Source of the DNA: Candidatus Baltobacteraceae bacterium
GTDB lineage: Bacteria > Vulcanimicrobiota > Vulcanimicrobiia > Vulcanimicrobiales > Vulcanimicrobiaceae
Reading direction: 5' to 3'
Length of the DNA: 64,000 bases
NCBI GenBank assembly: GCA_036488875.1
Contig: DASXGW010000007.1
Coordinates: 1-64,000 of the forward strand
Shown here: piece after piece, positions 18,513 through 24,406 of the stretch
Layout: each line of letters begins with the position of its first letter
Numbering within the stretch: position 1 is the first letter of the stretch
Notes under the pieces: model-generated
What the model was told of the DNA's origin: nothing
Database searches by the model: none
Seen by the model: the letters and a program-made list of their open reading frames with translations, nothing else
Program-made: the position numbers and the translations under genes

Positions 18513-19280
18513 GCCTCGACGTCGATTTCGGGAAAGCCGCAGCGGATTACGGAAAATACCGCGCCGGCTTCCCCGACGAACTTTTCGACCGCCTCTTCGC
18601 GGCGGCCATCGTGCGCCGGAACGATAGCGTGCTGGATCTCGGCACCGGCACGGGAACGCTCGGGCGCGGTTTCGCCCTGCGCGGTTGCAGCGTTACGGGA
18701 CTAGATCCGTCGCAACCGATGATCGATGAAGCGCGCCGCATCGACGGCGAAGCGGGCGTTACGGCGGCGTACGTCACCGGCCGCGCCGAAGAACTTCCGT
18801 TCGAAGACGCGACGTTCGACGTCGTCTGCGCGGGGCAGTGCTGGCACTGGTTCGATCGCGCGCCTGCCGCGGTGCAGGCGAGCCGCGTGTTAAAAGACGG
18901 CGGTCGAATCGTTCGTCGCGCACTTCGATTGGATTCCATTGCCGGGCAACATCGTCGATGCCACCGAACATCTCATCATGCGCCACAATCCGCAATGGAA
19001 GATGAACGGCGGCAGCGGTTTGCATCCGCGCACGTTAGCCGACGTCGCCGTTGCGGGCTTTACGGAACTCGAAACGTTTTCGTTCGATCTGGACGTACCG
19101 TATACGCACGAAGCGTGGCGCGGACGCATTCGCGCCAGCGCCGGGGTTGCCGCGAGTTTGCCGCCTGCCAAGGTTGCGGAGTTCGATGACGATCTAGCCC
19201 GGTTGCTCAAACGCGAGTACCCCCACGATCCGCTGAGCGTCTTGCATCGCGTCTGGGTATTGACCGCTCGAAACTCTTAG
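18509..19280 (+). pseudogene. SAM-dependent methyltransferase, frameshifted
   Basis: A class I methyltransferase that starts at ATG 18509 (ATGA overlap with the thioredoxin-like gene). The SAM motif VLDLGTGTGTLG and the LPFEDATFDVVCAGQCWHWF region lie in the first frame. After GGRIV (about 18910) the frame is lost; the expected continuation VAHFDWIPLPGN and the whole C-terminus lie in the next frame to the stop at 19280. One extra base in CGTTCG (18910-18915) explains this. Both halves keep normal family sequence, so it is either a very recent lesion or a sequencing error. The substrate is unknown. Confidence 0.8.
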
Positions 19281-21052
19281 TAGGCCATCTCCAGCACGTT
19301 CGGCGCCGATGTGTAACCGGTGCCGCCGCCGGCTATCCACAGGTTGCCGTTAGGGCCGATAACTATGCCGACGGATGATTGAAACACGTCGTTGGGGGTT
19401 CGCGTTTCGACGGCGTAGAGGTCGAGCGTGGGTGCGACGCCGGGCCCATTGTTCTCAACGCGCTCGATCTGCGGATGGTTGGCGAGTGCGAGGAAGATCG
19501 TGTTGCCGTCCGGTGCGACGACCATCGCGTTAGGCTCGTCGCTTCCAGTCGCGCTCGTGTACTCGCGAATCGACGCGGTGCTGAACGGCGTCATTGCGCC
19601 GATGGTATTTGGCGTGCACGTGTCGTTTGAAAACCAGAGCTGTCCGTCGGACGTTTGCGCGATTCCGGAAAGATTATAGTTGGGCCAGGCGGTGCCGCGG
19701 ATGGTATTGTCCGGAACCGTCGCGATCTGCGGCGAACCCACCGAGTGGCCGGAGATCGCGTATCGATCGATCGCCTGGTCGTACCGATCGACGACGTAAA
19801 GTTTTCCGTCGATCTTACTGAGGAGCAGGCTTTGATTATTGCCCGCGGCCTCGGCAAACGCGGGTCCGGTGAGCGTTCCCGCCGTCGTGATATTTCCGAT
19901 GAGGTTGCTGCAGTTCGACGTAAACCATAGGTCGCTGTTGTTCCCGGCAACGATCTTTTCGGGGCAAAACGTTCCGAGTCCGGTGACGCCGTATTCGCGC
20001 ACCGTTCCGCCGGGAGCCGTGCCCCGCGGTATTTCACCGATTTGGTTCGCGTTATTTTCGGTGAACCAAACGTTACCGGCGGAGTCCTCGACGATAGCGT
20101 CGTAGGCGCTATCGTCGGTCAGCGCCGGCGTGTTGGCGTGGTCGAAAACCGCCGGCGTTCCGGTCGCCGTAAGGCGAACGATCGCGTCGATCCCGCCGGC
20201 TCCCTGCGTCGTCGTCACCCAGACGTTGCCGTCGGGACCGCTCGTTATCGCAAGCAGCGAAGCCGGCCCCACGCCGGTCGCGCTGAACGACGCGAAAACG
20301 TGCGGCGTCGGCACGAATTGGGCCGGATCGACGGTTGCGCCGCTTGCCGTGGCCCCGATCGTTGCCGAGAACATCGATTTGCCCGTATAGGTGAGCGTGA
20401 CCGGCGTTCCGGGCGCGCTGACCCTCGTTGGACTTATGGAGGTCGCTCCCATTTTGTCCGTATCGATCATCTTCACCGGGACGCTGTAGTTACCGGGGCC
20501 GACGATCGCCGCGCCGCTTGCGTCGAAAGCGGTCAGGTACACCGGTATCTTTGCCGCGACGCCAGCGTTGGGATTGGGACTCTGCAGGGTCACCGAAATT
20601 CGCTTGATCACGCCTTCGAGCACGAGCGCGATTTGGGCGGCCCGGCCCGCTTCGATCGTCTTCACTATCTTTGCCCGGCTGAGAACCGCGTTTCGCGCGT
20701 CGTATAGCGCCACTCCGAACGTGACTTTGCCGGCCGGTACGCCGACCGTGAACGTACACTGCCTCGCACCGTCGATCAGGATGCAGTACTTAGTCTTGAC
20801 CCAAAGCCTGAACGATCCGATGAGCTTCCCGTTTGCGGTAAGCTTCATCGTGGTCGAGTTCACCGAAATGTAATGCGCCCGATGCCGCGGGTGCTGTGGA
20901 ATCCGTATCGAGACGTTTGCCGTCGCTTGCGGCTCGCGCGTTATACGAGCGATGCGCAAAGCCGGCAGGGCGTTTTGCTGCGGCACGACGACGCTTCCGC
21001 CGCATCCCGCCATCAGGGCCGTAAGAAGAAACGCGGCGGTACGCTGCTGCAC
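19277..21052 (-). CDS. Propeller lipoprotein with N-terminal Ig-like region
   Basis: A 591-residue exported lipoprotein (lipobox LMAGC). About residues 45-250 are beta-rich and resemble stacked immunoglobulin-like domains (IKRISVTLQSPNPNAG, PGTPVTLTYTGKSMF). The rest is a Vgb-like propeller with repeated GPDGNVWVT, EDSAGNVWFTE, TSDGQLWFSND and GPNGNLWIAGG. The ligand is unknown. It begins at GTG 21052 one base after the stop of the upstream paralog, so the pair is coupled. Its stop overlaps that of the broken methyltransferase (TTAG shared). Confidence 0.78.
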   Translation of the reverse strand: MQQRTAAFLLTALMAGCGGSVVVPQQNALPALRIARITREPQATANVSIRIPQHPRHRAHYISVNSTTMKLTANGKLIGSFRLWVKTKYCILIDGARQCTFTVGVPAGKVTFGVALYDARNAVLSRAKIVKTIEAGRAAQIALVLEGVIKRISVTLQSPNPNAGVAAKIPVYLTAFDASGAAIVGPGNYSVPVKMIDTDKMGATSISPTRVSAPGTPVTLTYTGKSMFSATIGATASGATVDPAQFVPTPHVFASFSATGVGPASLLAITSGPDGNVWVTTTQGAGGIDAIVRLTATGTPAVFDHANTPALTDDSAYDAIVEDSAGNVWFTENNANQIGEIPRGTAPGGTVREYGVTGLGTFCPEKIVAGNNSDLWFTSNCSNLIGNITTAGTLTGPAFAEAAGNNQSLLLSKIDGKLYVVDRYDQAIDRYAISGHSVGSPQIATVPDNTIRGTAWPNYNLSGIAQTSDGQLWFSNDTCTPNTIGAMTPFSTASIREYTSATGSDEPNAMVVAPDGNTIFLALANHPQIERVENNGPGVAPTLDLYAVETRTPNDVFQSSVGIVIGPNGNLWIAGGGTGYTSAPNVLEMAY

Positions 21053-21053
21053 G

Positions 21054-22880
21054 TTAGTAGGCCACCTTCACGATGGTGTTGGAGCTGTCGGTGGAATCGA
21101 CGTATCCGTTACTGGTGAAGTAGAGATATCCGTCCGGGCCGACGGCCACGTCCCAAAAAATGCCGTTAACGCTGGGCGGCGTCTTTACGGCGAGATCGTA
21201 GAGCGCGGGTGCGGCTGCGTTTGCGCCCGGAATGACTTGCGTGACCTCGTTTTGACCGGATTCGGGCACCCATAGACTGCCGTCTGCGAGCGCCGTCAGA
21301 AACGCCGGTGACGAGCAGCCGGCCAGCGTCGGCACTCGCGTTGCGGTCGAGCTGCCGAACGTTGCGGCGATGGCGACGCGAACGAGGTACGAATACTGGC
21401 ATCCGCCGGTCGTCGCCCACAAGTTGCCCGATGGGTCCTGCGTTAGGCCGACGAACTGGTTACCGGCGCTGCTCACGTCGAGCACGGGTCCAGGGTCGAT
21501 CGATCCGTGCACGATGGTGCCTTGGAAGATCGCAGCCTTCGACGTATTGGCGTCCTCGCCGGCGACGTACATCTTTCCGTCTTTTCCGATGAGCGGCTGC
21601 TGCGGATTTTCGAAGTTGCTCGGGAGCGTGCTGACCGTCGCCCCCGACTGTGCGACGTTGAGCAGTTGCGATCCCGAGGAGCACGCGATTGTAAACCATG
21701 CGCCCCCGGTTGCCGCGCCGCTTCCATACGTGGTGACGCGTTTGGCGCTGGCTCCGCTACAAATAGCCGGGAAGTTGGCCGTCGTGAGCTGCTGTGCGCC
21801 GCCGGCGCCGGCGGCGTTGATGCCGCCGATGTAGTCGTCGGCAGCGTAGACGACGCCCTTATCTCCCAGCGTGCTCGCCGCTAAGCCGGAGATCGGTACG
21901 TTGGGAAGCGACGTTCCGACGCCGGTACCCGGAACGATTTGCGTCATCGCTCCGGTCGTCGTCATATACGTCAGGCCGCTATTGAGTGCCGAGTCCGTCA
22001 CGCTGATCCACAGCTTGTTGTCGAGCGCCCGCGTAATGGCGACCGCGTTGAGCGCAACGCCAGTGTCCGCGCCGAGCGACCTCGGCAGCTCGAAGCTCCC
22101 CACGACCGCCGGCGTCGGCCGGAAGTCCGCGGGCGTTACGCTCGTCGACGGCAGCTTCGCCGCGGTCGCGCCGATCGTCGCGGTAGTGAGATTTGCGCCG
22201 GTATAGGCGAGCGTTACGGAAGTACTCGGACTCGTAATCCTCGTCGTCGAGAGCGTCGTCGCCTTGCTCGTATCGCTGTCGGTCAGCTCGATCGCAACGT
22301 TATAGTTGGCGGGTCCGATGATGACGTTTCCGCCGGCGTCTTTCGCCGTCACCGCCACGCCAAGCGACGTGGGCGTGCCGGCGGCAGCGTTCGGCCGTTC
22401 CACGGCGACGACGATGGACGCGACGACGCCGCCGAGCACGATCGAAATGAGGTTGGTGCGGCCGGTAACGATCGTCTTTGTGACGTTTCCGATGGAGAGC
22501 AGCTTGCCTTTTCCGCCGGCCGCATCGTACGTGTCGATCGCGATCGTCCGATTGAAGCCCGGCGACGTTCCGACGGTGAACGTGCAGAGCGTCGAACCGT
22601 TGCCCGATGCGCAGTACTTCGAGTTCGGCGTCGTGTTAAAGGTGCCGAGCTTCGTTTCACCCTCGGCGATCGTGAGCGATTTCGTGCTCGGCGAGATGTA
22701 ACGCGCGCGGCGTTGACGCCGGGGAATCCGTAAGCGTATTTCCAGCTTCGCCGCGACGGCGCGGTCGTGTCCGACGCTAGGCGCGAAGCTTCCCGGATGC
22801 TGCGCCGGAAGCATCGCTCCGCCCGAACACGCGGAAAGCATTGCGAACGCTAGAAGTACCGCCAGCGCTCGAAATCGCAT
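21054..22880 (-). CDS. Propeller lipoprotein, tandem paralog
   Basis: A 608-residue lipoprotein (signal MRFRALAVLLAFAMLSAC). ATG 22880 has AGGAG six bases upstream. The domain order is the same as in the downstream paralog: a segment around RRARYISPSTKSLTIAEG (RHRAHYISVNSTTMKL in the other), a Cys pair around YCASGNGSTLCTF (YCILIDGARQCTF), an Ig-like part, then a weaker propeller (DGKMYVAGED, DPSGNLWATTG, GPDGYLYFTSNG). The two are clearly paralogous yet strongly diverged. Confidence 0.78.
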   Translation of the reverse strand: MRFRALAVLLAFAMLSACSGGAMLPAQHPGSFAPSVGHDRAVAAKLEIRLRIPRRQRRARYISPSTKSLTIAEGETKLGTFNTTPNSKYCASGNGSTLCTFTVGTSPGFNRTIAIDTYDAAGGKGKLLSIGNVTKTIVTGRTNLISIVLGGVVASIVVAVERPNAAAGTPTSLGVAVTAKDAGGNVIIGPANYNVAIELTDSDTSKATTLSTTRITSPSTSVTLAYTGANLTTATIGATAAKLPSTSVTPADFRPTPAVVGSFELPRSLGADTGVALNAVAITRALDNKLWISVTDSALNSGLTYMTTTGAMTQIVPGTGVGTSLPNVPISGLAASTLGDKGVVYAADDYIGGINAAGAGGAQQLTTANFPAICSGASAKRVTTYGSGAATGGAWFTIACSSGSQLLNVAQSGATVSTLPSNFENPQQPLIGKDGKMYVAGEDANTSKAAIFQGTIVHGSIDPGPVLDVSSAGNQFVGLTQDPSGNLWATTGGCQYSYLVRVAIAATFGSSTATRVPTLAGCSSPAFLTALADGSLWVPESGQNEVTQVIPGANAAAPALYDLAVKTPPSVNGIFWDVAVGPDGYLYFTSNGYVDSTDSSNTIVKVAY

Positions 22881-22981
22881 TTTCAACTCCTGCAAAGGAA
22901 GAACTCACCCCAATCGGAAAGGCGCCTGCTCCTTTCGCCCTCATGGGGGCGCCGCCATCCCGCGGGGAAGAGTCCTCGAGC

Positions 22982-24406
22982 GTGCACCAGATCCATATCG
23001 GCATCGGCTCCAACCTCGGAGACCGCCAGAGCAACATCTTGGCGGCGTTGCAGCGTTTGCGCGGGCGTGGAAAAGTTACTGCGGTTTCCGCTTTCTACGA
23101 ATCGAAGGCGGCACACGGTGCCGAAGGGCCGGAGTATCTCAACGTCGCCGCGGTGTTGACGACCGAGCTCGACCGCGACGCGTTCGAGCGGTTCGCGCAC
23201 GACGTTGAGCTCGCCGTCGGCCGATCGGGGGGCAGCTTGAACAAGCTGGCAGCGCGACCGATCGATATAGACGTGCTCGCTTTCGACGGAACCGTCGTGG
23301 CGAAGAACTTGGAGCGTCGAGCGTACAATGCGGTACCGCTTGCCGAGATCGCTCCGCAGCTCATCCAGGCGCAACCCAACGGGGTCGTTCGCAAACGCGA
23401 ACGCAGCTTGCGTTTCGATACCGATCGGCAAGAAGAAGTTCCGGAAGTTCCCCTGTCGCTCAACCGAGTCGGCGTGTCGAGCGTTCGGCGCATTGTGCAT
23501 CTCGACGTCGACGGGCACGAGCGCGTCTACAACGGCGAGTTCGCGATGGTCGCCGACCTCGCACCGCACAAAGCCGGCGTGCACATGTCGCGCTTCGCCG
23601 AGATCCTCGAGGAAGCGACGCTCGACGTGCTCGCGCGCGACGAAAAACCGGCGCGCATCGAACGTCTCGTGGAATCGATCGCGCGCGAAATCGTGCAAAG
23701 CCAGCGCGCCGTTCGCGCCGACGTGCGGTTGCGTGCCGAGTTCGGTCTCGAACGCTGGACGCCGGTCAGCGGTAAGCGCGGCGAGGAAACCTACACCTTG
23801 ATCGGCATCGCGCACGCCGACGACCGCGCAACGCGGCGCGTGGTCGGTGTCGAGGCCGAAGGCATGACCGCGTGCCCGTGCGCGCAAGGAATGGTGCGCG
23901 AGCACTCGCGCCATCAACTCATCGAAGCCGGCTTTAGCGAAGCCGACGCGAAACGAGCTCTCGACGTGCTCCCGGGTGCGACGCACAATCAGCGCGGTCG
24001 CGGAGCGGTTCTGCTGGGGGTCGACGACGCGAACGCCGAAGCGGTGCGCGCCGAAGATCTCGTGGAGATCGTCGAAAATGCGATGTCGAGCGAAACCTAC
24101 GATTTGCTCAAGCGGCCCGACGAGTTCTTCATCGTCAACAAGGCGCATTACAACCCGAAGTTCGTCGAAGACGTCGTCCGCGGAATTCTATCGAACGCGC
24201 TGGACGTGTACGCCGATCTGAGCGACGAAACGTTCGTCTTTGCCAGCCAAGTCAACTACGAATCGATCCACAAGCACGACGCGTTCGCCGAAGGCTTCGG
24301 CACGTTCGGCGAGTTTCGCGCCGAGCTTCGAACCGGCAAGCAGTCCGTCTCGAAGACCGACCTGGCCGCATGGCTGGGCACGCGTCCCTCTCCGGTAGTC
24401 TCGTGA
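22982..24406 (+). CDS. folK-folE2: FolK-FolE2 fusion (HPPK + GTP cyclohydrolase IB)
   Basis: A 474-residue fusion. Residues 1-155 are 6-hydroxymethyl-7,8-dihydropterin pyrophosphokinase: HIGIGSNLGDRQSN, GPEYLNVAAVL and ARPIDIDVLAFDG. Residues about 160-474 are a type IB GTP cyclohydrolase (FolE2/MptA): DLAPHKAGVHMSR, EGMTACPCAQ with the catalytic Cys, THNQRGRGAVLLG and VNKAHYNPKFVEDVVR. It thus holds the first committed step and a later kinase step of folate synthesis. GTG 22982 is chosen because it gives a normal HPPK start and has GGGGAAGAG upstream; a longer frame would overlap the divergent lipoprotein start. Confidence 0.92.
   Translation: MHQIHIGIGSNLGDRQSNILAALQRLRGRGKVTAVSAFYESKAAHGAEGPEYLNVAAVLTTELDRDAFERFAHDVELAVGRSGGSLNKLAARPIDIDVLAFDGTVVAKNLERRAYNAVPLAEIAPQLIQAQPNGVVRKRERSLRFDTDRQEEVPEVPLSLNRVGVSSVRRIVHLDVDGHERVYNGEFAMVADLAPHKAGVHMSRFAEILEEATLDVLARDEKPARIERLVESIAREIVQSQRAVRADVRLRAEFGLERWTPVSGKRGEETYTLIGIAHADDRATRRVVGVEAEGMTACPCAQGMVREHSRHQLIEAGFSEADAKRALDVLPGATHNQRGRGAVLLGVDDANAEAVRAEDLVEIVENAMSSETYDLLKRPDEFFIVNKAHYNPKFVEDVVRGILSNALDVYADLSDETFVFASQVNYESIHKHDAFAEGFGTFGEFRAELRTGKQSVSKTDLAAWLGTRPSPVVS

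Follow-up and report, generated by a model that had tools for sequence, protein, structure and literature searches.

In the window (the whole 64,000-nucleotide stretch analysed here), positions 22982–24406 of the forward strand hold a single frame of 474 codons that runs from a GTG at 22982 to a TGA stop at 24404–24406 without internal stops and encodes a FolK-MptA fusion. A Pfam hmmscan of this frame recovered HPPK (PF01288: 81.4 bits, E = 8.7e-23) at residues 6–125 (22997–23356) and GCHY-1 (PF02649: 217 bits, E = 4.1e-64) at residues 148–436, the latter within an MptA-type GTP cyclohydrolase domain that spans residues 148–449 (23423–24328) based on profiles (PF02649/TIGR00294) and matches to solved structures. 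An alternative in-frame ATG lies at 22943, and the block shared with full-length homologues starts at the GTG. The preliminary description of FolK and a GTP cyclohydrolase in one polypeptide was therefore accurate, including its exact coordinates. GTP cyclohydrolase I starts pterin synthesis and HPPK catalyzes a late step, and the two enzymes are usually separate. As the same description pointed out, the two activities are separated by the phosphatase and aldolase steps, and we found FolB and FolP encoded elsewhere in the window genome (G000), on contig C14.

The AlphaFold2 model of the window protein (mean pLDDT 87.6), for which 61 fused proteins were aligned, has one part that resembles solved FolE2 structures (2r5r, 8g8v, and 3d2o) and another that resembles solved HPPKs, with low confidence in the second half of the inter-domain linker (residues 126–147, 23357–23422). 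In the cyclohydrolase half, a CPC motif (residues 298–300, 23873–23881) aligns with the CPC of solved FolE2, and an HNQR motif (residues 335–338, 23984–23995) is invariant among the fused proteins compared. Opposite the fusion gene there is an antisense frame of 421 codons (22883–24148, reverse strand), probably a GC-rich shadow frame. Two long genes in tandem on the reverse strand (19277–21052 and 21054–22895) show weak to moderate Vgb_lyase-type propeller matches and probably encode exported proteins.

Counting the matches listed, the full-length fusion occurs in 104 of 149 genomes of the phylum (Eremiobacterota/Vulcanimicrobiota), window genome included: 89 from the window's family (f1), four from the sister family f2 of the same order, and 11 from f3 of the same class. 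Identity among these homologues goes down to 46%, and the exceptions within the phylum are mostly contig-end fragments. Relatives were checked for a stop between the domains, and none was found: the only in-frame TAG (L079) is inside the HPPK domain, and the remaining relatives are intact, except where a contig end truncates the copy or a likely frameshift splits it. An assembly chimera is excluded by the same two-domain frame in the 104 genomes and in several other phyla, and with a complete isolate genome among the carriers, the broader proposal that an assembly or annotation artefact joined two genes has next to no probability. One genome of the window's family (G079) has FolE1 and a stand-alone folK and lacks a PF02649 match. 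Natural replacement of the fused enzyme, with loss of the fusion, is likely rather than certain in this case because the genome is 84% complete.

The fusion is not unique to this organism. Among the matches listed from a contig scan, Ktedonosporobacter rubrisoli, represented by a complete isolate genome, has the same two-domain frame, as do contigs labelled Anaerolineae, Chloroflexia, Thermobaculum, Ardenticatenia, Acetomicrobium, other Synergistota, Caldisericota, Acidobacteria, Desulfobacteraceae, and Pseudodesulfovibrio (a truncated copy). By contig label, this corresponds to at least five other phyla (Chloroflexota, Synergistota, Thermodesulfobacteriota, Caldisericota, and Acidobacteriota), a lower bound in which taxon labels may be wrong, since many of the outside genomes are MAGs. 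A close plasmid or phage copy was also sought, and this candidate was rejected: matches were only to separate FolE2/MptA or FolK, none covering 80%, and the nearest among plasmid records was a haloarchaeal MptA (32% identity). The preliminary description regarded a FolK-FolE2 fusion as unfamiliar, and in the literature searched we found no published description of a FolK-MptA fusion. Its wide distribution across phyla and its tie to H4MPT clusters were not part of that description. HPPK is likewise joined to another pterin-pathway enzyme in FolK-FolP and FolB-FolK chains (an HPPK-DHPS fusion was among our solved-structure matches, and Bifidobacterium longum has a FolK-FolB fusion, PMC1971073); those fusions join neighbouring steps, whereas FolK-MptA joins the first step of the pathway and a late one.

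With a haloarchaeal MptA as root, the cyclohydrolase tree unites the fused sequences in one clade (98/99) and keeps them separate from the stand-alone MptA-like genes found in Thermoleophilia. This topology fits one fusion event. The branching order of the fused sequences is mostly unresolved in this tree, and a classic-FolE2 root gave a very long branch and an unreliable deep order. Two rows in the MptA-rooted tree have very long branches (L073 and L074), of which L074, a stand-alone plasmid gene, is the only non-fused row inside the fused clade. This divergent PF02649-like gene is annotated as hypothetical and lies beside a TauD-like dioxygenase gene on the conjugative Arthrobacter plasmid pZXY23. 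A tree of HPPK domains places most of the fused ones in a group (94/86) that also takes in a few stand-alone or truncated copies and leaves out the long-branched L047; the stand-alone folK genes of the window's family form a separate clade (98/93). This excludes a recent origin of the fused HPPK by duplication of the genome's stand-alone folK.

The cyclohydrolase had been described as type IB, an assignment that is right at the superfamily level (PF02649/COG1469), where the family profile and the CPC, HNQR, and ESIH motifs all place it, but the subtype is MptA-like and not classic bacterial FolE2. The cyclohydrolase half scores above the equivalog cut-off of the NCBIfam MptA model TIGR00294 (258.8 bits; cut-off 220) and below that of the FolE2 model NF010200 (149.1 bits; cut-off 215), and ten relatives (nine fused and one stand-alone actinobacterial) all pass TIGR00294 with 247–298 bits. 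The fused type has the Pfam family, the fold, and the CPC, HNQR, KRPDE, NPKFVED, and ESIH motifs in common with bacterial FolE2 (2r5r, 3d2o, and 8g8v), but the classic FolE2 of the phylum forms a separate, longer-branched group. Within the phylum, the fused MptA type is present in f1–f3, and other families have stand-alone FolE2 (270–308 bits), FolE1, or no match. Unlike archaeal MptA, the window protein is bacterial, fused to HPPK, and from a phylum in which no tetrahydromethanopterin (H4MPT) marker was found. In methanogens, the MptA product is 7,8-dihydroneopterin 2',3'-cyclic phosphate (PMC3087415), and in Haloferax, where methanopterin-specific enzymes are absent, MptA serves folate synthesis (PMC8305020).

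The window genome is 97.6% complete and contains one PF02649 protein and no FolE/FolE1 (PF01227) match; no GTP cyclohydrolase I other than the fusion was found in it. It also encodes a QueD above cut-off, overlapped by a QueE-like radical-SAM gene. The substrate of QueD is dihydroneopterin triphosphate, so the presence of this gene suggests that the triphosphate is what the sole cyclohydrolase probably makes. The queD and QueE-like genes were seen together at L192:4440–5379 (contig C13 of the window genome) and also at L194 and L195; in the genomes of the window's class that were searched, there was no convincing QueC, with weak PP-loop matches only. A second HPPK is encoded at C14:90641–91021, adjoining FolP and FolB in a canonical folP-folB-folK locus, and this stand-alone copy reaches about 125–126 bits against PF01288 vs. 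81 bits for the fused domain.

The position of these genes bears on substrate channelling, in which the cyclohydrolase product would pass to a bound aldolase or PTPS-type bypass enzyme and from there to the HPPK site. In one Anaerolineae MAG, a PTPS-family gene with a CERLHGH motif (L193:5350–5847) overlaps the fusion gene at its 3' end; if this is a PTPS-III, the two fused activities would be separated by a single enzyme. In the window genome, however, the aldolase FolB is encoded with folP and folK at a separate locus, the fused HPPK half is remodelled, and none of the neighbours examined at f1 and f3 loci belongs to the pathway. Such channelling is improbable here because the aldolase and the canonical kinase are encoded elsewhere.

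The HPPK half passes both models available for stand-alone FolK, PF01288 with 81.4 bits (cut-off 25.7) and TIGR01498 narrowly (57.3 vs. 54.1 bits). It retains the catalytic Arg82 and Arg92 and the Mg-binding Asp95 and Asp97, which, together with Asn10 and Asn55, are kept in 36/36 fused copies of its own family. Two motifs mark these conserved parts: GSNLGDR (residues 9–15, 23006–23026), which persists in remodelled HPPK domains, and ARPIDID (23252–23272), which contains Arg92 and both Mg ligands. Asn55, the aromatic residues at 53 and 123, and Arg121 are kept in 35–36 of the 36 copies. In contrast to stand-alone FolK, the nucleotide side is altered. At the site of the hairpin that corresponds to E. 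coli HPPK residues 101–116 (23282–23320), about eight of 16 residues are missing according to alignments and models, and the hairpin is reduced to a median of eight residues across the window's family. In the window protein, His115 is replaced by Ala and the PPLG of the PPxG loop 2 by KAAH; in the family as a whole, the replaced positions are His115 (26/36), Gly46 (25/36), and Pro44 (22/36). Two hairpin strands are present in the model of an f3 relative vs. none in the window model, and all f3 copies retain the hairpin, His115, and the catalytic residues. The literature searched gave no account of how H115A or loss of the hairpin affects E. coli HPPK.

The ratio of HPPK to cyclohydrolase distances is 0.90 in other phyla, 1.15 in f3, 1.37 in f1/f2 members with the hairpin, and 1.87 in the window's group, indicating that the fused HPPK of this group evolves faster. 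Values of dN/dS for the fused HPPK part range from 0.03 to 0.26, with some imprecision as several dS values exceed 1, and the domain is therefore still under selection. A dead pseudo-domain is not favoured, given the persistence of both the catalytic residues and purifying selection.

Our preferred reading, to which we assign a probability of about 0.7, is that the window protein is the sole GTP cyclohydrolase I of its genome, feeding both folate synthesis and QueD, and that its HPPK half is redundant and remodelled. The cyclohydrolase half would convert GTP to a dihydroneopterin phosphate that enters folate synthesis through FolB, FolP, and the stand-alone canonical FolK encoded elsewhere, and would also supply QueD, most likely with dihydroneopterin triphosphate. 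The strict conservation of Arg82, Arg92, Asp95, and Asp97 counts against this reading, as the remodelled HPPK may still be catalytic. Both halves could then be fully active and give the genome two HPPKs, the fused one using ATP through a reduced adenine pocket, or a different nucleotide. Retention of these residues and of Asn55, the two aromatics, and Arg121, purifying selection on the domain, and the observation that no intact family member lacks the HPPK domain all favour this alternative, but the halved hairpin, the frequent replacement of His115, Gly46, and Pro44, the low profile score relative to the stand-alone copy, and the raised rate speak against it, and we place it a little below an even chance. 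Somewhat less probable still is a non-catalytic regulatory or structural role, in which the HPPK half would bind a pterin or nucleotide and act as a product-feedback sensor that tunes the cyclohydrolase at the entry to the pathway. Such a role could account for a pterin pocket and Mg site that are kept while the nucleotide-side hairpin is lost, and for a domain retained with dN/dS well below 1 despite a folK elsewhere; it is also consistent with G079, which seems to have lost the fused protein yet keeps its stand-alone folK. Simple binding, however, does not require strict retention of both catalytic arginines.

Copy numbers in relatives point to an active HPPK more clearly. Among the matches listed, 12 of 18 outside genomes, including the complete K. 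rubrisoli genome, have no HPPK other than the fused protein, a count that is less sure for those that are MAGs. Eight f3 genomes (G015, G016, G017, G021, G023, G024, G025, and G028) have neither another HPPK nor another GTP cyclohydrolase I, and both halves of the fused protein are probably active there for that reason. FolE1 was also not found in 16 of the 20 sole-HPPK genomes (12 outside and eight f3). By these counts, the HPPK half is probably active outside the window's family, and two working enzymes in one chain are well supported for relatives but not for the window protein. Redundancy permits a change in the HPPK half but does not force it, because other genomes with two copies keep an intact fused HPPK.

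Outside the phylum, the fusion is associated with genes of H4MPT metabolism. Among the matches listed, the H4MPT marker Mch is present in 14 of 18 outside-phylum fusion genomes, and in about ten of these genomes it lies within roughly 10 kb of the fusion; the four without Mch include K. rubrisoli. The neighbours surveyed at Synergistota, Caldisericota, Desulfobacteraceae, and Anaerolineae loci are H4MPT-type genes: formylmethanofuran dehydrogenase A (FmdA), Ftr, beta-RFAP synthase, a DHPS-like protein (TIGR00284), DUF447, an AfpA/DmrB-like flavoprotein, MfnE- and MfnF-like proteins, and an H4MPT-linked C1 protein. H4MPT genes are already known from Synergistetes and Chloroflexi (PMC5020050), where we found no mention of the fusion gene. 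The bacterial H4MPT/methanofuran C1 clusters of the type described there hold the same fusion in Synergistota, Chloroflexota, and Desulfobacteraceae loci, but Mch was found in 0/149 genomes of the window's phylum, and an H4MPT role in the window genome was rejected because no Mch was found there. One Desulfobacteraceae MAG (L118/G164) carries the fusion in an H4MPT cluster with D95N, H115Y, and R121S in the HPPK half and has a second folK, and this is an independent loss of HPPK residues.

The preferred reading would extend to the history of the protein as follows. The fusion may descend from an enzyme that served pterin supply with both activities; its counterparts in Chloroflexota, Synergistota, and others lie within H4MPT clusters, usually in genomes that have no further HPPK. 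The window's class would have kept the fused enzyme without H4MPT, and in f3 it apparently still performs the two functions. A second folK may then have relieved the HPPK half in the window's family, leading to faster evolution and loss of the hairpin with the Mg- and pterin-binding residues kept. No H4MPT-type phosphodiesterase (MptB) or phosphatase was traced, which counts against this reading, as do the outside fusion genomes that lack Mch or also have FolE1. With the branching of the fused sequences mostly unresolved, the ancestral context may have been either H4MPT or folate. A bolder version, which we offer tentatively and with the odds against it, holds that a once bifunctional H4MPT/folate enzyme now has an HPPK half that acts as a sensing control domain, or as a kinase with altered nucleotide use, attached to the sole cyclohydrolase. 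If true, the entry enzyme of the pathway would be under the control of a repurposed late-pathway enzyme.

The fusion is real, widespread, and ancient-looking, and its chemistry is ordinary; the new points are the association with H4MPT genes, the persistence of the fusion in genomes where H4MPT was not detected, and, in the window's lineage, a remodelled half. It provides a candidate enzyme for the steps that supply pterin in bacterial H4MPT synthesis and is a marker of the movement of C1-cofactor genes between bacteria. The graded series from a sole HPPK to a second folK and a remodelled half allows a test of whether a redundant fused domain becomes a regulator. FolE1 also occurs in several of the outside fusion genomes, among them K. 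rubrisoli. In K. rubrisoli, a frame of 493 codons (G151:C1:11137189–11138268) contains two spaced partial FolE (PF01227) matches near QueD and QueC, and is possibly a FolE fusion or insertion.
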